Source of the DNA: Fidelibacterota bacterium
Lineage (GTDB): Bacteria > Fidelibacterota > Marinisomatia > Marinisomatales > TCS55
Assembly: GCA_002730315.1 (NCBI GenBank)
Contig: PBZW01000062.1
Location: 1-33,507, forward strand
DNA: 33,507 bases
Direction of reading: 5' to 3'
Part shown: piece after piece, positions 6,410 through 17,660 of the stretch
Position numbering within the stretch: position 1 is the stretch's first letter
Layout of the letters: every line of letters starts with the position of its first letter
The notes under the pieces: generated by a model
What the model saw: the letters and a program-made list of their open reading frames with translations, nothing else
Told to the model about the DNA's origin: nothing
The model's database searches: none
Translations under genes and position numbers: made by a program

Positions 6410-7524
6410 TGAACCAGCAAAAAGATTATATCCAGCTGATTTACAGGTTACTGGTCGGGTTGCTTGGGATTGGTTTTCTATATGTTATTTGGCCTTACAT
6501 ATCATCTGTTTTATTAATGCTGGTGTTTGCCTTTCTTTTTACTACTGTCCTGCTTCCCAGCGTTGATGCCTTGGAACGAAAGATAAGGAATCGTGGCTTA
6601 AGTGTTCTTGCAGTAACTATAGGGCTGATTACCGCCATATCCATTTTTATCGGCAGCTTTGCTACCAATCTTGCCGACCAGGCTGGGGATTTTTCCCAGC
6701 GCCTGGAAACAGAATCATTCATGGATGATTTCAACACTTTCATTGATAATACAAAAGCTAAATTACCTTCTTTTGTACTAGGAGAAAGCGATGCACAAGA
6801 TCCGGCTGAAAAGCTCAATGATATTATGGGTGGTTTAATGTCCAAATTGCTAACATTTGCAGGCGCTTTAGGAGGATTTGTGTTTAACATGATCATGGTA
6901 ATTATTTTTACGATCATCCTGCTGTTGAATTATCATCAATTCAAGAAAACGCTCGTTAGTTTTATACCCAATAAATTTTTTGAAGTAGGCTTACGGCTCA
7001 TTTTTAACATTGAACAGCAAGTGTCTAATTATTTAAGAGGTCAATTTTTGGCCGCTACCAGCGTGGCAATTATGTCTATCGTTGGCTTGTATATACTTAA
7101 TTTTTTCGGGGCTAATTTGACCCTCGTGGTTTTTATCGGCATTATTGCCGGGCTAGCAAATATGATTCCTTTGGTAGGACCGTTTATTGGTATGCTTATC
7201 GCTTTTGCAGTAGCACTGATGAATAACCTAGGTATTGAAGCAGCCCAGGCCCATATGCTGTTTAATACTATTCCTTCACCGTTTTATATACTTGACGTTG
7301 TATTGTTGTTTATTATTGTACAGCAAATTGATAATAATTTTATTACACCATTGCTTGTAGGCGAAAGTGTTGGTCTCCATCCAATGATGGTCATGATCGC
7401 TCTATTGATCGGCGGAACGCTTATTGGTCCCATGGGCATGCTTTTTGCTGTACCTGCGGCGGGAATTATAAAAGTGGTTGGCCAGGAAATATCATTCGTG
7501 ACCAAAAACGCCCACTTGCTTTAA
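6409..7524 (+). CDS. AI-2E family transporter / PerM-like permease
   Basis: Multiple TM helices, ..GIIAGLANMIPLVGPFIGMLIA.., QQIDNNFITPLLVGESVGLHPMMVMIALLIGGTLIGPMGMLFAVPAAGIIKVV (family C-terminal signature). Start overlaps the upstream stop (TGATG). Confidence 0.92.
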   Translation: MNQQKDYIQLIYRLLVGLLGIGFLYVIWPYISSVLLMLVFAFLFTTVLLPSVDALERKIRNRGLSVLAVTIGLITAISIFIGSFATNLADQAGDFSQRLETESFMDDFNTFIDNTKAKLPSFVLGESDAQDPAEKLNDIMGGLMSKLLTFAGALGGFVFNMIMVIIFTIILLLNYHQFKKTLVSFIPNKFFEVGLRLIFNIEQQVSNYLRGQFLAATSVAIMSIVGLYILNFFGANLTLVVFIGIIAGLANMIPLVGPFIGMLIAFAVALMNNLGIEAAQAHMLFNTIPSPFYILDVVLLFIIVQQIDNNFITPLLVGESVGLHPMMVMIALLIGGTLIGPMGMLFAVPAAGIIKVVGQEISFVTKNAHLL

Positions 7525-9398
7525 GCACCCTTTTCAATCTTAAATAATTTAAAATCCTTAAACGATAAATACATATCTCCGCCTTCCTCCAAAGGGTAAA
7601 TCCACATTTCAATTATTGAACCATCACTATCTTTTTTTTCGATAATTTCATGTGGATAGCCCAGCAATGACTGGATATCGGGTACAGTCATCCCAACTGT
7701 CAGCGGTGGAACAGTTTTCTTTTGGACAGCTCGCTGGCGAATAGTTTCCATCCTTCGATCGATTCGTCCTGATATTTCACGGTCTTGGTCATGAGAAAAT
7801 TTGCTCAATAATTCATTAAGTATTTTTTCATTCTCCTCTCCCAACCCGCCTGTAAGATTGCTAGCATCTACCAGCATTTGTATAGCAGCACGCAATTCAG
7901 AATGATCCGTCACCTCATTGGCCATTGCCACCAAGTGGGTGGCTACCTGGTAACGAAGAGTGCTAACTTCAAATTCAAGACCACTGTCCTTCTGCAGCGC
8001 TTCATCAATCAAAGTTAAGGATTTACTGTAAAAGCCATAGCGAAGTGCTTTTTCTCCCTCCTGTAGCAATTTTCTGGCTTCAAAATAGGGTATTTTTTCT
8101 CCGGCTGCTTTTGAAAAATGAGCAATATTTTCCATAAGTTTGATCGCTTGATCAGCTTTTCCCTGTGAAGCGAGTAATTCAGCTTTTTCAATTTCAAGGA
8201 TAGCAATATGATCTAATTTCCCTTGGATCAATTCCTTTGTTTCACCTTCCGCCCTCAGCCGCCCGGCTATAAATCTTTCGATTGCTTTTTCAGTCATTCC
8301 TTTTCGTTCAAACTGGAGTCCTTCCTTATATAACTGTATCGGAATTTTCTTTTTACTTTCTGCTAAAAATTTTTCTGCTTTTCTACGATTAAAATGTTCC
8401 GGATAATTATTTAGAAATGTTTCGAAATATTCCTTGGCCGATACAAAATCTCCTCTGTAATAATGGTCTTTTCCCTGGTCCCCGGATGAAAGCATACCAC
8501 CGTATAAAACAGAAAAGGTTATATGTAATCCAAAATCCTGAAGATGAATTTTATTAATAGGTGTAATGTCATCCGGGTCATTAATAGAATTAAGTTTTGT
8601 ATATGCATAACGAAAATCCAGCCCTAGTGAAAAACGATTATGGCGTGAACGTGTTTTTTTACCTTTTTCATCCCCGTATTTCATACCAAGGTCTATAACA
8701 ACCCGGGGGCCCAGGGAAATGGACATGGATGGCCCTAGCCCGGATAAATTTGATAAAAGCACATCATCCTTATCCATGTAAAAATTGGAGTAACCATAAC
8801 CCCATGTATACCTAATATCAATATACCAGGGTTCAAACCATTGCAACATGGTCGTATGGCTTATTCCGAATGTTAATACCCTGGGTGCAAAACGAATTGT
8901 TCCCGGATTCCAGCTGCTTTGTATTTCTCCCCAACTGGATATTTGTTCAATTTTCCCGGGGACAAGCACGTTACTATAGCGGATGTTCAGACCAGTGTTC
9001 ATATCCAGCCAGCTTGCGTTTAATAAATAATAGAATAAATTCAATTTAACAACATCCATATCCAATTGGTGGCCAATCCTGCCTTTTATTGAACCACCGT
9101 CAAAACGAGAAACTGATGTTTCATAAGTTATCCAGTTTGATTTCACATTATCATCCATACCACCGCCATAAAAAAATACGCCATATCGAATTTCAGCTGG
9201 TAAAAATGTTACCGGCTCATGAAATTCACGGCGGAAAAGAATTTGATCTTTCCAGTAGCCCGGCTCGTAATTAATTGCTTTATCCGAGCTAAACTGAATT
9301 ATCCCCCAAAGATAAGATTTTATGGAATCTGCATCCGCGCCATTTAAAGGGCAAAGAGTGAAAAATAGGATGATGATATGTTTTAACCTCGGATGCAT
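7521..9398 (-). CDS. Hypothetical outer-membrane-barrel-like / TPR protein with C-terminal BamE/SmpA-like domain
   Basis: Signal peptide; N-terminal half with alternating aromatic beta-strand pattern (WYIDIRYTWGYGYSNFYM, SMSISLGPRVVIDLGMKYG); middle TPR-like helices (YRGDFVSAKEYFETFLNNYPEHFNRRKAEKFL); C-terminal LTVGMTVPDIQSLLGYPHEIIEKKDSDGSIIEMWIYPL. Confidence 0.7.
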   Translation of the reverse strand: MHPRLKHIIILFFTLCPLNGADADSIKSYLWGIIQFSSDKAINYEPGYWKDQILFRREFHEPVTFLPAEIRYGVFFYGGGMDDNVKSNWITYETSVSRFDGGSIKGRIGHQLDMDVVKLNLFYYLLNASWLDMNTGLNIRYSNVLVPGKIEQISSWGEIQSSWNPGTIRFAPRVLTFGISHTTMLQWFEPWYIDIRYTWGYGYSNFYMDKDDVLLSNLSGLGPSMSISLGPRVVIDLGMKYGDEKGKKTRSRHNRFSLGLDFRYAYTKLNSINDPDDITPINKIHLQDFGLHITFSVLYGGMLSSGDQGKDHYYRGDFVSAKEYFETFLNNYPEHFNRRKAEKFLAESKKKIPIQLYKEGLQFERKGMTEKAIERFIAGRLRAEGETKELIQGKLDHIAILEIEKAELLASQGKADQAIKLMENIAHFSKAAGEKIPYFEARKLLQEGEKALRYGFYSKSLTLIDEALQKDSGLEFEVSTLRYQVATHLVAMANEVTDHSELRAAIQMLVDASNLTGGLGEENEKILNELLSKFSHDQDREISGRIDRRMETIRQRAVQKKTVPPLTVGMTVPDIQSLLGYPHEIIEKKDSDGSIIEMWIYPLEEGGDMYLSFKDFKLFKIEKGA

Positions 9399-9516: not shown

Positions 9517-10164
9517 ATGAGATTAAGGCAATTGACTATATTGATGATGCTCATTGCAACAGGTTATGCGCAACATTTTACCATCGCCCGCCTGCATTAC
9601 GGCGGCGGCGGCGATTGGTACAGCAATCCCAGCAGTTTGCCAAATTTATTGAATTATTTACAAACCCATACCACTATCATCGCCGCCGATAAAGAAGCGC
9701 GTGTAAAACTGACGGATGAAAACCTTTTTTCATACCCATATTTATACATGACCGGCCACGGTAATGTTCGCTTTACAGAAGCGGAGATCATCCGCTTAAG
9801 AACATTTTTACAGCGCGGGGGCTTTTTGCACGCGGATGACAATTATGGCATGGACCAATCATTTCGCAGGGAAATGAAACGCGTTTTCCCCGAAAAGAAA
9901 TTTGTAGAATTACCCCATGACCATCCTGTGTATTCCCAGGTGTTTGACTTTAAATACGGTCTACCCAAAGTCCACGAACACGATAATAAACCACCCCAGG
10001 CTTTAGCGCTTTTTGAAGATGAACGCATCATGATCCTCTATACTTATGAATGCGACCTGGGCGACGGCTGGGAAGATATTGAAGTCCACAATGATCCCCA
10101 GACTATCCGTGAAGCAGCGCTGCAAATGGGCGTCAATATCATTCATTTTGCACTGACCCAATAA
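9517..10164 (+). CDS. DUF4159 domain secreted protein
   Basis: Signal peptide MRLRQLTILMMLIATGYAQ; FTIARLHYGGGGDWYSNPSSLPNLLNYL...YPYLYMTGHGNVRFTEAEIIRLRTFLQRGGFLHADDNYGMDQSFRREMKRVFP matches the DUF4159 pattern as I remember it. Confidence 0.85.
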   Translation: MRLRQLTILMMLIATGYAQHFTIARLHYGGGGDWYSNPSSLPNLLNYLQTHTTIIAADKEARVKLTDENLFSYPYLYMTGHGNVRFTEAEIIRLRTFLQRGGFLHADDNYGMDQSFRREMKRVFPEKKFVELPHDHPVYSQVFDFKYGLPKVHEHDNKPPQALALFEDERIMILYTYECDLGDGWEDIEVHNDPQTIREAALQMGVNIIHFALTQ

Positions 10165-13100
10165 TGCAGTCCATCGAAAAACAACTTAAATCAATTCGCA
10201 ATGCAGCCCTGTTAAATGATGTGCGAACTGCAACCTGGATTCTTTATTCTATTGGACTACTTGTTGTTATTAGTGCAATTATACTTGAGGCTGTTTTTTA
10301 CTTTACACCGGAGATCCGTTATGGTTTTTGGCAGCTTGGATTGGTTGTTTTTTGTGGAGCAGTTTTTGGTATTATTCTCATTTATATACTTGCAGTCAAT
10401 AATAAGATCAACCGTTATCGCTGGTCTACATTAGCCAAGGCTGCCGGAAGACTGGCTTTTCCTAAAGAAGATACAATCATCAATGCCCTGCAATTGGAAC
10501 GGGGTTTGGAAACGAGCACCTCCAGGCAGTTGAGCAAATCGTTTGTAAAAGAGACGAATAAAAAACTTGGGAAACTCGATACAGCTGATTTATTCCATTC
10601 CAGCCGCGGGCAGCAATGGAAATCCTCTTCGCTGGTTATACTACTGGCGGGTGTATTCATCTTTTCAATAAATTGGAATAATAATGCCCAGGCTGTTTTT
10701 CGCTGGTCCCATCCCCGTACCACTTTTCCAGTACCACAACCATTTGCAATTCAAAATTTATCCGGGAATATCAACCTTTTGGGTGGGGAAACTGCTGAAC
10801 TTGCATTTACCGTTATTGGTGAGGCGCCCGATTCACTGTTTATAGACCTGCAGCCCTACACCACCCCGGACACCAGTCAACCTGTTTTAATAGCTAAAAA
10901 AGACAGCACAGGCATTTTTAAGTACACTATCAAAGATATCTCCCAGGATTATCGTTACCGGGCCTATTACAGTGCAGTTCATTTTTGGGAAGTATGGTCA
11001 GAAATATCTTCTCCTTTTCACGCCATCTCTGTTACAGACCGCCCGGTTATGGAGGATTTGACCATAACTCTTACACCACCAAGTTATACTCAGCTGAAGC
11101 CGGTTATTCAAAAAGGGAACCAGGCTGATATCAGCGGATTGGTCGGATCGAGCGTCCACGTATCTCTGCGTAGCAACCGTCCCTTAAAAAAAGGTGCTTT
11201 GATTATAAATGATAAAGCATTGCCAATGGCAATCAATGGCAAGAAAGCCACCGGGGAATTCATCATTAGTGAAGATGGCCAATTTGCTATACAACTGCAG
11301 GATATACGGGGAATTTCAAACCGTAATCCAATTCCATTTTATATTACAGCTGTCCAGGATTTATTACCGGATATATCCGTTTTTCAGCCCGAGCCGATAA
11401 TGGAACTGGGCAGTGATCAAATAATACCAATGCACGTGCATATTGAAGATGATTTTGGATTTTCCAATTTGCAGGTTGCCTATGAAATTCACCGTCCTGC
11501 TTACATTGCTGTAGATCCTTTACTTTCCCTGTTTACGATTCCCATAAATGAACCAATGAACGTAAACCAGGAATTGATCCATGTCTGGCAATTACTTGAG
11601 CTTGGCTTGATGCCTGAGGATGAAGTGCATTACCATTTTGAATTATCTGATAATGATCTGATCTCGGGACCGAAGAAAACTGTCACAAATGAATTCATAG
11701 CCCGTCTTCCGGGCCTGGCTGAATTATTTACCATGTTCGAGAATAAAGAAGAGACCATATTGGATGAGGTTACCTATTCTCAAGAAGAGCTGGAAGCAAT
11801 ACGTGAAAATATGGAACAACTGGAACTGGATATACTAAAGCAGGATGAATTAACTTGGGAGCAGCAGCAGGATCTGCAGAATATGCTGGAAGGTGTAAGA
11901 GAAGAAATGAAAAAGATGGAAGAAATTGCTGACGCATTAAACTCATTACAAGAAGCTGCAGATAAACACGATCTTTTTTCAACCGATTTATTGGAAAAGT
12001 TTAACCATCTGCAGGAGTTGATCGATGAATTACTTTCCGAAGATTTAATGAAAAACCTGCAAAACATCGATGAAATGATGGCGGAGATGGATCCCAAAAA
12101 ATTGCAGGATGCGCTGCAGTCCCTATCCAATAATCTTGAACGTGTTGAACAAGAACTGGACAGGTTTATTGATATTTTTGAACGCATTAAAGCTGAACAG
12201 AAAATGGATGAACTGCTCACTCGCCTGGAAACTCTGGCAGATCAGCAGGAAAAATTACATGACCGCATCGATCGCACCCATGAACAAACGGACCCTTCAA
12301 CATTCTCAAAACTGAGCGAAGAAGAACAGCGCCAGGTCGAAGAATTTTCCAATATTCGCAATGAAATGGAAGATGCCGCTGAAGCTGTGGAAAAATTTCA
12401 CGAAGAATCAGCTGATCTGCTAGAGGAATTAAAACGCGATCCTTTAATGAATCAAACCTATGCTGACCTGCAGCGCACCGTAAACCAACTGCGTAGGCAG
12501 AATTCGGATGATGCTTTAGAATACAGCGCCTCTGCCCTGGAAAATTTGCAGAACCTATTAAACGAAATGCAAAATATCCAAAAGGGATTCCAATCAGCAA
12601 CGACCCGGGAAATGGCGGCAAAATTTCAGCAGATCATGGGTGATATATTGAATATTTCAAAATCCCAGGAACAACTGCAAAACGAAACTGGATCAGTACC
12701 ATTCAATTCACCCCGTTTAGGAAATATGGCTGGACATCAGCAAATGCTTCAGGACCAGCTCCATCAAATCATGGAACAGCTCATGGAATTGTCACGGGAG
12801 ACATTTGCGGTTACACCGGAAATTGGCCGGGGGATGGGCATGTCCAACGCCATGATGCAAGAAGCCATCAATGCCCTGGCACAACGCAACGGCCGCGGTG
12901 CCGCCCAGCAACAGCAGCAAGCCATGAAATCATTAAATGAAACAGCTATGGCCATTCACCAATCCATGAACCAAATGCGCTCATCCGGTTCAGCCAGTGG
13001 CTACGAACAGTTCTTGGAACAAATGCAAAAAATGGCCGGCCAGCAGCAAGGTATTAACAGCCAAAGTATGCAGTTGGCCATGGGGCAAATGGCTGCGGCT

Positions 13101-13577
13101 GCACAGCAAGGATTATTGAAAAAACTCCTGCAGGAACAAAAACAAGTGCGCAAATCCCTGCAGGAAATGATGAATGAAATGAAACGCTCCGGAGAAAAGG
13201 GCTTGGGCGATATGGGTGGAATTGCCCAGGAAATGGACGAAGTGCTGAAAGATTTCGAGCGGCAGAAAATTTCCAGGAAAACGGTTGATCGACAGCAACG
13301 TATCCTTTCCCGCATGCTGGACAGCCAGAAGTCAATGACCCAGCGGGGTGAAAAAGAAGAACGCAAAAGTGAAACAGCAACAGAAATATTTATCAGCGGC
13401 CCGGCTGGGCTGCCGGCAGATATGGGCCAGCGCCGCAGTTTGACAATGGAGGCAATGAATCGCGCCCTGAAAGCCGGTTACCCCCGGGATTACCAAGCAA
13501 TGATCCGCAGGTATTTCAATGCCATCAGTGCGGAAGATTTCTCGATATCACCAACAGATACTTCAAATGCAAATTAA
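10164..13577 (+). CDS. Large membrane-anchored coiled-coil protein, DUF4175-like
   Basis: Two N-terminal TM segments (WILYSIGLLVVISAIILEAVF; FGIILIYILAV), a third at LVILLAGVFIF, beta-rich middle, then ~600 aa of E/Q/M/K-rich coiled coil. Start overlaps the DUF4159 stop (TAATG). Confidence 0.7.
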   Translation: MQSIEKQLKSIRNAALLNDVRTATWILYSIGLLVVISAIILEAVFYFTPEIRYGFWQLGLVVFCGAVFGIILIYILAVNNKINRYRWSTLAKAAGRLAFPKEDTIINALQLERGLETSTSRQLSKSFVKETNKKLGKLDTADLFHSSRGQQWKSSSLVILLAGVFIFSINWNNNAQAVFRWSHPRTTFPVPQPFAIQNLSGNINLLGGETAELAFTVIGEAPDSLFIDLQPYTTPDTSQPVLIAKKDSTGIFKYTIKDISQDYRYRAYYSAVHFWEVWSEISSPFHAISVTDRPVMEDLTITLTPPSYTQLKPVIQKGNQADISGLVGSSVHVSLRSNRPLKKGALIINDKALPMAINGKKATGEFIISEDGQFAIQLQDIRGISNRNPIPFYITAVQDLLPDISVFQPEPIMELGSDQIIPMHVHIEDDFGFSNLQVAYEIHRPAYIAVDPLLSLFTIPINEPMNVNQELIHVWQLLELGLMPEDEVHYHFELSDNDLISGPKKTVTNEFIARLPGLAELFTMFENKEETILDEVTYSQEELEAIRENMEQLELDILKQDELTWEQQQDLQNMLEGVREEMKKMEEIADALNSLQEAADKHDLFSTDLLEKFNHLQELIDELLSEDLMKNLQNIDEMMAEMDPKKLQDALQSLSNNLERVEQELDRFIDIFERIKAEQKMDELLTRLETLADQQEKLHDRIDRTHEQTDPSTFSKLSEEEQRQVEEFSNIRNEMEDAAEAVEKFHEESADLLEELKRDPLMNQTYADLQRTVNQLRRQNSDDALEYSASALENLQNLLNEMQNIQKGFQSATTREMAAKFQQIMGDILNISKSQEQLQNETGSVPFNSPRLGNMAGHQQMLQDQLHQIMEQLMELSRETFAVTPEIGRGMGMSNAMMQEAINALAQRNGRGAAQQQQQAMKSLNETAMAIHQSMNQMRSSGSASGYEQFLEQMQKMAGQQQGINSQSMQLAMGQMAAAAQQGLLKKLLQEQKQVRKSLQEMMNEMKRSGEKGLGDMGGIAQEMDEVLKDFERQKISRKTVDRQQRILSRMLDSQKSMTQRGEKEERKSETATEIFISGPAGLPADMGQRRSLTMEAMNRALKAGYPRDYQAMIRRYFNAISAEDFSISPTDTSNAN

Positions 13578-15465
13578 AGCACTTATATTCATTTTCCTGA
13601 TCTCCATTTGCTGTGCTCAAGTACAGGTCCAATCACTGGGTAAAAGCGGGCTGGAAAATGCCTTACTTATGGAACGTAAAGGTGATCTGCAGGAAGCACA
13701 AAAGATCTATGAATTAATATTGGAGACCAAACCCAAGAACAGGCAGGCGTATAACCGCCTGAAAAATATTTACAAGCGCCTTGGTAATTACATGGCCGCG
13801 GCTGAATTGATCAGCAACTGGTTAATCCATTCCCCCCATGACATCCAGCAGCGTGTTGAACTTGGAGAAATATTTTACATCAGCGATAACCACGAACAGG
13901 CAGAACGTGTTTGGGATGAGTTTATTATGCAGTATGGCCAAAACACCAGCGCTTACCGGATGCTTATACATACCTACAGCCGTTTAGGGCTTGGTGAAAA
14001 AATGATTCAACTGGTTTATGACGGACGGAAAATATTCACCGATCCGGACTTTATGGCGCTGGAAATGGGACATTTTTACCAATCCAGGCAAAACGTTGAA
14101 AAAGCGCTGGCAGAATATCTGGTTTTTGCACAGCACAACCCCCGCCAGCATAAAACAATTTTGGATAAACTTTTAATTATCAGCGATGATGAGGAAGCAG
14201 TGCCGATTATTGAAAATTATTTAATAAAGCAAATCGGTACTATTCCGAATATCGGTCACAGTTTCCTCGCAGCACTATATTTCAAGACAGGCAGATATGA
14301 AGAATCCCTCCAGCAACAACTGCAAATGAATGGCGACCAACAAAACCACTGGAAAAGTTTAAACACCTTTGCCATGAATCTTCGCCAGGAAAAACAATTC
14401 GACCTGGCTATTCACACCTATGAAATCCTTTTACAGGAAATTCGGGGTAATCCTGATAAAATTGAGGGCAAAGAACTGGGCAAAGTTCTGCTGGGGCTCG
14501 GACAAGTTTATGAAGACCAGATTATGCCGTACCAGATTAGCAATTCACTCATTTTGAACAGCGTTAATAACGTGTTTTTTTCCAGCGGCTTTTACCAAGC
14601 CAACAGCATTTCCACAGCATCATTGGAACAAGCGATTGTTTTGTACAACACTATATTGAATGAACTTGAAGCAACTTCCTTTTCACCCAAAGCCCATTTT
14701 CGCCTGGGTGAAATTCAATTCAATGTGCTTCAGGACCTGGATGGCGCCCGCCAGGCTTACGCAACAGCCCTGGCTTCAAACCCGGATAAAAAACTGGCGT
14801 TTAAAATCCACGCCAGCTTCATCGATCTATTGCTGGCGGAAGGTAAAATTGATGAGGCGCAATTATACATTAATCAACTTCCCAGGAATATAATTAAGGG
14901 CAATGAAAGCCAACTCATCATTAAGTCATTGAAAGCATTGCTTTTCAATGGTGAAATAGACAGCTCAATTATAATCCTTGATAATTACCTGGTACACTTA
15001 ACGCCCATGGATAAGCATTTCAACGATTTCATGGAACTCCAAGCCACGCTGCACGCCCATATGACAGATGGCAATGAAACAGATAAGGAAGCATTGCTGC
15101 ATTATTTCACAGGTGAAAAACTCATTACACAACATAAATTATCGGAAGCTGTATATATTTTTGCAAATATGCGCTTACATCTCCCCCAATCCAAAATAAC
15201 TGTAACTGCTGCTGTACGGGAAATTTTCAGCCGCCTGCAACTGGGGCAAACAGCGGAACTGGAACAATCGCTGGCGTGGCTGATCAGTTCCAGTGATGGC
15301 GCTAAAGGTCTTGCCCTTTCTGGTGAAATTTCTGAATTCATCAATCATGATACCCTGGCAGCCCTGGGTTTCTATGAGCAGTTGTTGCATGACCACCCCG
15401 AATCGCTGCTGGTTGAGCCGGTCCGCAAGCATATTCGCAAACTAAAATCTGAGGTAGAAAGCTGA
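13567..15465 (+). CDS. Secreted TPR-repeat protein
   Basis: MQIKALIFIFLISICCAQ signal peptide at the ATG at 13567 (track start 13519 is upstream in frame). Multiple TPR-like units (LLMERKGDLQEAQKIYELILETKPKNRQAYNRL; FRLGEIQFNVLQDLDGARQAYATALASNPDK). Confidence 0.85.
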   Translation: MQIKALIFIFLISICCAQVQVQSLGKSGLENALLMERKGDLQEAQKIYELILETKPKNRQAYNRLKNIYKRLGNYMAAAELISNWLIHSPHDIQQRVELGEIFYISDNHEQAERVWDEFIMQYGQNTSAYRMLIHTYSRLGLGEKMIQLVYDGRKIFTDPDFMALEMGHFYQSRQNVEKALAEYLVFAQHNPRQHKTILDKLLIISDDEEAVPIIENYLIKQIGTIPNIGHSFLAALYFKTGRYEESLQQQLQMNGDQQNHWKSLNTFAMNLRQEKQFDLAIHTYEILLQEIRGNPDKIEGKELGKVLLGLGQVYEDQIMPYQISNSLILNSVNNVFFSSGFYQANSISTASLEQAIVLYNTILNELEATSFSPKAHFRLGEIQFNVLQDLDGARQAYATALASNPDKKLAFKIHASFIDLLLAEGKIDEAQLYINQLPRNIIKGNESQLIIKSLKALLFNGEIDSSIIILDNYLVHLTPMDKHFNDFMELQATLHAHMTDGNETDKEALLHYFTGEKLITQHKLSEAVYIFANMRLHLPQSKITVTAAVREIFSRLQLGQTAELEQSLAWLISSSDGAKGLALSGEISEFINHDTLAALGFYEQLLHDHPESLLVEPVRKHIRKLKSEVES

Positions 15466-16715
15466 TGAAACGGTTTATCCTATTTATCCTGTTATTGAAT
15501 AGTATAAATGGCCAGAAAATATTGCTGCCCATGGATATCAGCCAGCGCGACCATTTGAAAGCCTACGGACTGGCGTTTTGGATCTTGGAGAATGATGTTA
15601 ATGTAGAATGGCTTTTGAATTATAGGGGCGGATCATTCCTCACGGATACGAACCCTGTAATTGAAAAAGAATGTCGGATCCGCGGTATCAATTATGAATT
15701 GATCAACGCCGTGGAGGTACTGAGCATTTACGGCCATATCGAGCAAAATAATATGGATATCGTGCTGCTGGAGAAAGCACCAAAAATTGCTATTTACACG
15801 CCGCCAAATAAACAGCCCTGGGATGACGCCGTTACCCTAGCCCTGACTTATGCCGAAGTTCCTTACGAAACATTGTGGGATGAAGACGTGTTTCAGGGCA
15901 AACTCGATAATTACGACTGGCTACACCTCCACCATGAAGACTTCACCGGCCAGTACGGGAAATTTTATCGGAATTATCATTCAGCCCCGTGGTATATTCA
16001 GCAACAAAAGGAATTTGAAGCCATGGCAGCAAGGCATGGTTTTTCTACGGTTCATGAAGAAAAAAAGGGTGTAGCCAGGGCTATAAAAGCTTATGTAGGT
16101 ACAGGCGGCTTTCTTTTTGCCATGTGCAGTGCCACCGATTCCTATGACATTGCATTAGCGAGTGAAGGCGTGGATGCGGTTCATTCTGTATTTGACGGCA
16201 CCGCAGTTGAACCCGATGTTCAGAAAAAAATGGACTTTTCCAAAACATACGCTTTCACTGGTTTTAATATTATGCCTGATCCCATGGTCTATGAATTTTC
16301 TGATATTGATTATCCTCCCAGCCATGATCCTGTCCTCCGCGGAGCCGAAGCCGACTATTTCACCCTATTCGAATTTTCCGCGAAGTACGATCCCGTACCC
16401 ACCATGTTAACCCAAAACCACGTGCCAGTGATCAAGGGTTTCATGGGACAAACTACCGGCTTCCACCGGGACCGCATCAAAAACCATGTGGTGGTCATGG
16501 GCGAGGACCCCACCACGCCGCAGGTGAAATACATTCATGGAAATTTTGGCAAAGGATCCTTCACCTTTCTCGGGGGGCATGACCCGGAGGATTACCAGCA
16601 TTTTGTGGGGGATCCGCCCACCGATCTTTCATTGCATCGAAATTCCCCGGGCTATCGTCTTATTTTGAATAATATCCTATTTCCTGCCGCTCGTAAAAAA
16701 GAACGTAAAACATAA
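15465..16715 (+). CDS. Secreted protein of the family annotated 'asparagine synthetase B' in Bacteroidetes (function unproven)
   Basis: Signal peptide then ILLPMDISQRDHLKAYGLAFWILENDVNVEWLLNYRGGSF...NKQPWDDAVTLALTYAEVPYETLWDEDVF...DWLHLHHEDFTGQYGKFY...FLFAMCSATDSYDIALASEGVD...GGHDPEDYQHFVGDPPTDLSLHRNSPGYRLILNNILFPAA, recognised from memory as this conserved family. No AsnB glutaminase or ATP-pyrophosphatase motif seen. Confidence 0.8.
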   Translation: MKRFILFILLLNSINGQKILLPMDISQRDHLKAYGLAFWILENDVNVEWLLNYRGGSFLTDTNPVIEKECRIRGINYELINAVEVLSIYGHIEQNNMDIVLLEKAPKIAIYTPPNKQPWDDAVTLALTYAEVPYETLWDEDVFQGKLDNYDWLHLHHEDFTGQYGKFYRNYHSAPWYIQQQKEFEAMAARHGFSTVHEEKKGVARAIKAYVGTGGFLFAMCSATDSYDIALASEGVDAVHSVFDGTAVEPDVQKKMDFSKTYAFTGFNIMPDPMVYEFSDIDYPPSHDPVLRGAEADYFTLFEFSAKYDPVPTMLTQNHVPVIKGFMGQTTGFHRDRIKNHVVVMGEDPTTPQVKYIHGNFGKGSFTFLGGHDPEDYQHFVGDPPTDLSLHRNSPGYRLILNNILFPAARKKERKT

Positions 16716-17660
16716 ATGGGATTCCCCCATTTCACTGATATTGAAAAGGCAGCTGAAACAATAGCGCCTTATGCTGAACGAACACCTGTTCGGTTCAACG
16801 CTGCAATCGATGAAATGTTTGGAGCGGAGATTTTTTTCAAATGCGAAAATTTTCAAAAAGTGGGTGCATTCAAATTTCGCGGAGCGTGCAATGCTGTTTT
16901 CAATTTGAGTGAGGACGAAGCAGCCAAAGGTGTAGCCACTCACTCATCCGGCAATCACGGGGCAGCTCTTTCATTGGCTGGATCTTTGAGAGGAATCCCT
17001 GTTCATGTGGTGATGCCCAATAATGCTCCCCGGATAAAGATCGACAATGTGGCCCAATATGACGCCAATATTACACTGTGTGAACCCACTCTAGATGCCA
17101 GGGAAACAACGTTAGATAAAATCATGGAGAAAACCGGAGCTGTGATGATCCATCCTTACAACGATGATAGGATCATCTGCGGCCAAGGGACAGCAGGGAG
17201 AGAATTACTCTTGGAATATTCTGATCTGGATGCGGTTATGGCTCCTATTGGGGGCGGCGGTCTCATATCCGGCACGTGCATAGCTGCCAAGGGCTTGAAC
17301 CCTAATATCTCAATCATTGGTGCTGAACCAAAAGGTGCCGATGATGCATATCAATCTTTTATTAAAGGCGAGATCGTCCCCCAAACAAACCCGCAGACTA
17401 TGGCCGATGGACTCTTGACCTCGCTGGGCGAAAAAACTTTCCCCATCATACAGAAATATGTAAAAGAGATCATCACTGTCAGCGAAGAACACATCACCGA
17501 AGCTATGCAGATCATTTTTCAAAAACTTGATATGATCATTGAGCCCAGTTCGGCTGTAGTACTGGCAACATTATTAGAAAATAATTCGTCCACCCAAGGT
17601 AAAAAAGTTGGAATGATCATTACTGGTGGAAATGCGGACCTGGATGATCTTCCATGGTAA
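16716..17660 (+). CDS. PLP-dependent threonine/serine dehydratase or serine racemase (fold type II)
   Basis: KCENFQKVGAFKFRGACNA (Schiff-base Lys), SSGNHGAALSLA, APIGGGGLISG, ITGGNADLDDLPW. Confidence 0.92.
   Translation: MGFPHFTDIEKAAETIAPYAERTPVRFNAAIDEMFGAEIFFKCENFQKVGAFKFRGACNAVFNLSEDEAAKGVATHSSGNHGAALSLAGSLRGIPVHVVMPNNAPRIKIDNVAQYDANITLCEPTLDARETTLDKIMEKTGAVMIHPYNDDRIICGQGTAGRELLLEYSDLDAVMAPIGGGGLISGTCIAAKGLNPNISIIGAEPKGADDAYQSFIKGEIVPQTNPQTMADGLLTSLGEKTFPIIQKYVKEIITVSEEHITEAMQIIFQKLDMIIEPSSAVVLATLLENNSSTQGKKVGMIITGGNADLDDLPW

Follow-up and report, generated by a model that had tools for sequence, protein, structure and literature searches.

The window analysed here is a 33,507-nucleotide stretch of DNA from a Fidelibacterota bacterium (contig PBZW01000062.1 of assembly GCA_002730315.1). 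It is contig C57 of a 1.34-Mb genome that is 73% complete and whose closest named relatives are Candidatus Marinimicrobia/Neomarinimicrobiota. The window carries four consecutive genes encoding a DUF4159 protein, a DUF4175 protein, an exported TPR protein and an exported 'asparagine synthetase B-like' protein, for which ASNB is used as a working name. We consider it fairly probable that these genes encode one half of an envelope-maintenance machine driven by MoxR, the half facing the periplasm, with the machine's other parts unlinked in this bacterial order. On our best reading, the MoxR-DUF58-BatA-DUF4159-DUF4175 envelope system is present here in scattered form, and it is related to cmdA-D of Rhizobium. 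A system of this kind is already known in outline; the scattered arrangement, the parts list obtained from co-inheritance and the ASNB family appear to be new.

Conservation of the four-gene unit

The first-pass annotation of the window described the four genes as overlapping at their starts and stops, which the open reading frames (ORFs) confirm. The overlaps in the order DUF4159, DUF4175, TPR, ASNB amount to 1, 11 and 1 bp (at 10164, 13567-13577 and 15465), and the first and last junctions read TAATG and TGATG. The TPR ORF is open from 13519, and its signal-peptide start is the ATG at 13567, which gives the 11-bp overlap with the DUF4175 stop at 13577. The products also have the exported or membrane-anchored look ascribed to them. 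The N-termini of DUF4159, TPR and ASNB resemble Sec signal peptides by inspection, and DUF4175 shows hydrophobic segments at residues 20-38 and 53-71, with a third likely at about 153-169 by eye.

The sample at the level of the order comprised 61 genomes, the window's own and those of 60 relatives. ASNB was found in 56 and DUF4159 in 54 of these. The order DUF4159-DUF4175-TPR-ASNB is kept at the loci read in nearly all cluster-bearing relatives and is therefore not due to chance; the four genes form a conserved unit, as had been proposed. Strict translational coupling was rejected as a conserved feature, since the relatives' junctions range from overlap to short gap, mostly about -60 to +30 bp. 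Two loci are exceptional: in L044 DUF4159 and DUF4175 are separated by a 935-bp gap, and in L053 (G038:C6) an insertion of about 8.4 kb, which carries several minus-strand genes, separates DUF4175 from TPR.

No other protein of the cluster comes close to ASNB in conservation: 164 of its 416 residues are invariant within the order, and the best 80 loci show 56-88% identity. Matches among the best 80 also come from Calditrichota, Gemmatimonadota, Latescibacterota, Krumholzibacteriota, Cloacimonadota, Ignavibacteria and Bacteroidota, with identities of about 56-68%. All four genes stand together in Gemmatimonadota and in one Krumholzibacteriota locus, and at least DUF4175-(TPR)-ASNB is kept together in Latescibacterota. 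The Calditrichota cluster is in two pieces, DUF4159-DUF4175 and TPR-ASNB; the split point in L053 is the same. In the Bacteroidota genomes mapped, the genes are scattered and lie next to housekeeping genes, DUF4159 by rsmE, DUF4175 by ybeY/mnmG and ASNB by dnaB. Of 248 Bacteroidota genomes, 178 contain both ASNB and DUF4159, 4 contain DUF4159 only and 66 contain neither. No genome contains ASNB only, and this zero is telling. The first-pass annotation had allowed for a lack of co-occurrence in other genomes; the outcome was the opposite, and co-occurrence is very strong.

Kinase-like genes were observed near some of these pieces. An RsbW-like kinase gene follows DUF4175 in Bacteroidota (L195, L198-L204), and kinase-like/STAS genes lie ahead of DUF4159-DUF4175 in Calditrichota, which suggests regulation by partner switching.

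MoxR, DUF58 and BatA partners

The cluster had been described as being without MoxR, DUF58 and BatA genes, and their absence had been taken to indicate a separate system. The description holds within the window and fails for the genome: the proposed search for MoxR and DUF58 elsewhere in the genome revealed a matching pair on contig C24. The copies of this type are designated MoxR-2 and DUF58-2, and the BatA protein of about 690 aa is designated BatA-690. The separateness of the system was not borne out, given the C24 pair, its ASNB-adjacent relatives in sister phyla and the co-variation of BatA-690.

In the Gemmatimonadota locus L101, DUF4159-DUF4175-TPR-ASNB-MoxR-DUF58 form a single run, and L098 has the same gene order, with MoxR at 11313-12302. 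In Latescibacterota (L102, L104 and L106), MoxR-DUF58 is located about 1.5-2.6 kb downstream of ASNB. Two further operons combine the same protein families: DUF4159-TPR-MoxR-DUF58-BatA-DUF4175-VWA protein in Calditrichia (L267) and MoxR-DUF58-BatA-DUF4175-GATase1_like, with a DUF4159 gene upstream, in Latescibacterota (L205). The DUF58 tree (support 100/98) unites the C24 copy, the Gemmatimonadota and Latescibacterota neighbours, the L205 and L267 copies and the solo Bacteroidota DUF58 in one clade. The MoxR tree (SH-like approximate likelihood ratio test, SH-aLRT, 100) does so for the C24 copy, the ASNB-neighbouring copies and those of L205 and L267. The L205 and L267 operons differ from the window system in that they end in a GATase1_like protein and a VWA protein, respectively, where the window cluster has ASNB. 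Their divergent DUF4175 and DUF4159 proteins are probably paralogues of those of the cluster.

Among the relatives that are at least 85% complete, DUF58-2 is present in 40 of 41 genomes with ASNB and in 0 of 4 without it (p 3e-5). BatA-690 shows the same distribution (40/41 versus 0/4, G047 being the exception) and occurs in 52 of all 61 genomes. The ASNB-less families f13 and f15 are also devoid of DUF58-2 and BatA-690 and have kept DUF58-1 and the Bat-type BatA.

These data bear on two other explanations. The four proteins might act as an independent periplasmic system without MoxR, DUF58 and BatA, their co-occurrence reflecting shared ancestral core genes of the superphylum. Such a system would fit the observation that no mapped genome of the order has the cluster linked to MoxR-DUF58 or the two in one operon, and that the Bacteroidota pieces all lie in unrelated housekeeping neighbourhoods. 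We regard it as unlikely, however, because the matching MoxR-DUF58 clade adjoins the ASNB cluster in Gemmatimonadota and Latescibacterota, because canonical operons unite DUF4159, TPR, MoxR, DUF58, BatA and DUF4175, and because of the joint absence in f13 and f15 although the other MoxR-DUF58 pair is kept there. Membership of the cluster in the classical Bat aerotolerance operon, as a part that has become dispersed, is very improbable. MoxR, DUF58, VWA and TPR proteins are common to both kinds of system, and the Bacteroides Bat operon shares this logic, but it belongs to a different MoxR-DUF58 clade, distinct with full support, and contains no DUF4159, DUF4175 or ASNB. The window genome carries a separate Bat run on contig C27 (BatA, BatB, TPR, BatD, TPR/SH3), and the Bat-type BatA persists in the ASNB-less f13 and f15. 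The cluster was rejected as a member of the Bat operon on the grounds of the separate genes on C27 and the different DUF58 clade.

Several further features were noted around these genes. The second MoxR-DUF58 pair of the order (L228-L235), which lies outside the C24-type clade in both trees, has genes for Omp85 and for a large TamB-like protein as neighbours; a link to outer-membrane assembly is possible. A small ORF of 119-122 aa is found between MoxR-2 and DUF58-2 in L219, L223 (3788-4156) and L224, and its product has the look of a four-helix bundle in L223. A TPR lipoprotein-like gene convergent with DUF58-2 (L062, 9608-10684) is kept in most relatives and may be a further part. In a genome of about 0.9 Mb that is without ASNB, DUF58-2 and BatA-690, a divergent DUF4159 gene or remnant occupies the syntenic place near a contig end (L063, G050:C1:42082-42507).

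Proteins of the cluster and neighbouring genes

The doubt cast earlier on the 'asparagine synthetase' label was justified. Asparagine synthetase identity was rejected, as ASNB has no AsnB domain or motif: the N-terminal Cys2 N-terminal-nucleophile (Ntn) glutaminase domain and the C-terminal ATP-pyrophosphatase synthetase domain that mark asparagine synthetase B are both missing. Unlike what the label leads one to expect, the protein begins with a signal peptide. Comparison of ASNB with Pfam and NCBIfam gave zero matches at E<=0.1, the sequence search of solved structures gave nothing useful and the plasmid search gave zero matches. A function or family description for ASNB was not found in the literature search. 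With no Pfam/NCBIfam model or paper found, the ASNB family appears to be new.

The AlphaFold2 model of ASNB, built from 68 sequences, has a mean predicted local distance difference test (pLDDT) score of 87.5. In the PDB, Foldseek matched it to STM3548 (2gk3), lin1909 (3fij), SpuA (7d53) and glycoside hydrolase family 42 (GH42) enzymes, which we take to share the class I glutamine amidotransferase (GATase)-like fold. The E value to 2gk3 was 3e-6, and the template modelling (TM) scores, normalised to the target, were 0.52-0.56 for 2gk3, 3fij and 7d53, with root-mean-square deviations of 7-9 A. The predicted fold of ASNB resembles the class I GATase-like fold, the match being modest. In the superphylum alignment of 68 rows, Cys221 and His372 stand in every row and Glu375 in 66 of the 68, and an H-L-H-H-E-D motif at 154-159 is invariant. 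In the model, Cys221 sits where strand 216-220 meets helix 222-232, and His372 and Glu375 come after the last strand, ahead of the C-terminal helix. STM3548, lin1909 and SpuA likewise have a Cys at the strand-helix turn and a His before the last helix; ASNB differs from them in being exported and larger, in its HLHHED motif and in an identity of only about 10-13%. Cys221-His372-Glu375 is a candidate catalytic triad, read from conservation and strand/helix placement.

ASNB is probably a Cys-dependent amidase or hydrolase. It looks like an unstudied periplasmic enzyme spread across the whole superphylum and is the likeliest catalytic or substrate-binding part of the machine. An appreciable, though lesser, chance is given to ASNB having a GATase-like fold but a binding or structural role without catalysis, and to the machine being purely a scaffold or sensor; this competes with the enzyme step only and is compatible with the rest. 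Such a role would agree with the lack of the Cys in DUF4159 and with the many Foldseek matches of ASNB to large GH42 enzymes, the GATase-like domain of GH42 being a non-catalytic trimerisation module. The near-complete conservation of the three residues and their placement as in class I GATases argue for the enzyme.

The DUF4159 model (pLDDT 91) has as its best Foldseek match 4i66 (TM 0.77/0.82), a protein that is also related to DUF4159 by sequence (E 3.7e-9). Weaker matches with modest scores follow to GATase-like folds, including ThuA-like proteins and the IFT52 N-domain. The invariant Asp108 of DUF4159 is aligned at the position of ASNB Cys221. DUF4159 probably has the same kind of predicted fold as ASNB without the Cys and would be non-catalytic. 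In a profile comparison only 16 columns of the two proteins were aligned, at the GGFLxA motif, and therefore only a similar fold and not common descent is claimed. The plasmid search with DUF4159 gave one weak match and one orphan gene about 50% identical to that of the window. The orphan lies on a plasmid of Corynebacterium crudilactis (L266, 5968-6585 of NZ_CP015623.1), with resistance genes and insertion sequences around it, and is probably a passenger from another phylum. Latescibacterota genomes (G068, G070 and G071) show a family expansion, with 8-12 DUF4159 matches each.

In DUF4175, the PF13779 match passes the cut-off, with its best stretch at 302-517. Residues from about 500 to 800 are 43-46% charged or Gln, and the region of about 500-1080 is a probable charged, Gln/Met-rich coiled coil, judged by composition. 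In the literature search by name, DUF4159 was unmentioned and DUF4175 was mentioned in a single paper. AdvA of Acinetobacter, a cell-division protein with two membrane helices, carries the DUF4175 label (PMC7481262). It is like the window protein in its label, its two membrane helices and an envelope/division role, a likeness by description, and unlike it in being a cell-division protein.

The genes of the locus are listed in Table 1. A fifth gene, encoding a pyridoxal phosphate (PLP)-dependent dehydratase (16716-17660), abuts ASNB with zero gap. It is placed outside the unit because it is found there in the closest genera only; the downstream dehydratase, GNAT and YjbQ genes vary between genera and were rejected as members of the system.

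Table 1. Genes of the cluster and a candidate accessory gene in the window
Feature	Position	Strand	Assignment
DUF4159 protein, 215 aa	9517..10164	+	PF13709 E 1.1e-69; signal peptide, then class I GATase-like predicted fold
DUF4175 protein, 1137 aa	10164..13577	+	PF13779 E 3.5e-14; N-terminal membrane helices, probable coiled coil
Exported TPR protein, 632 aa from ATG 13567	13567..15465	+	TPR Pfam matches, E to 3.5e-12
ASNB, 416 aa, exported	15465..16715	+	No Pfam/NCBIfam match; class I GATase-like predicted fold
Divergent outer-membrane/TPR-like protein	7521..9398	-	Syntenic in most relatives; candidate accessory, membership putative

Relation to cmdA-D and the proposed machine

Two features of a cmd-type system were found in the window genome: adjacent DUF4159 and DUF4175 genes (PF13709 E 1e-69, PF13779 E 3.5e-14), and, on C24, MoxR and DUF58 of the operon clade. 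The Rhizobium cmdA-D genes form one operon, whereas the window system is scattered, and the remaining genes of that operon reportedly encode membrane proteins. The published descriptions consulted present cmdA-D as a MoxR ATPase and a DUF58 protein with other envelope genes, link the TPR protein RL0936 to envelope function, and report no counterpart of ASNB, which would be an extra subunit of the window system. According to the same descriptions, cmdA-D (RL3499-RL3502) of Rhizobium leguminosarum influences the morphology of the cell and the integrity of its envelope and is required for membrane integrity (PMC5700661, PMC3893208), and MoxR ATPases are thought to be chaperone-like and to mature dedicated protein complexes (PMC3893208). 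In a transposon screen, RL3499, RL3500 and the TPR gene RL0936 were growth-impaired (PMC5118466). VWA proteins help bring MoxR to its substrates (PMC11834572).

From the chaperone-like role of MoxR, the targeting by VWA proteins and the phenotype of the Rhizobium operon, we infer a machine spanning the envelope, in which ASNB is the periplasmic catalytic or binding subunit. The cytoplasmic AAA+ ATPase MoxR-2 and the VWA-type adaptor DUF58-2 would remodel or assemble an inner-membrane complex of BatA-690 and DUF4175. DUF4175 would reach into the periplasm with a long coiled-coil arm. There the TPR protein may serve as a scaffold, and DUF4159, without the Cys, and ASNB may dock. ASNB, a probable Cys-dependent amidase or hydrolase, would find its substrate in the cell wall or envelope. 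The envelope role of the machine is suggested by analogy with the Rhizobium operon.

Several points weigh against this proposal. The co-loss in the order amounts to two families, f13 and f15, or one or two events, and covers ASNB, DUF58-2 and BatA-690. The window's own genome, which is 73% complete, gave no match to BatA-690; its incompleteness may explain this. The Fisher p of 6e-56 for the co-occurrence of ASNB and DUF4159 in Bacteroidota overstates the evidence because these genomes share ancestry and are not independent. The likeness to Rhizobium cmd is drawn from published descriptions, and the best Foldseek match of ASNB is modest, with a TM of only 0.36 (query) and 0.56 (target).

A bolder version of the proposal is put forward as a speculation that we ourselves doubt: ASNB may found a new family of periplasmic Cys-dependent amidases or hydrolases, widespread in the FCB (Fibrobacterota-Chlorobiota-Bacteroidota) superphylum, which would form the catalytic end of the MoxR-powered trans-envelope machine and edit a substrate in the cell wall or envelope, with DUF4159 as a pseudoenzyme partner.

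The misleading 'asparagine synthetase' label in the databases is corrected by this analysis. MoxR-DUF58-BatA loci are widespread, and co-inheritance supplies a parts list for one such machine, namely MoxR-2, DUF58-2, BatA-690, DUF4159, DUF4175, TPR and ASNB. This list spans the superphylum, including the Bacteroidota, in whose genomes the parts look unrelated.

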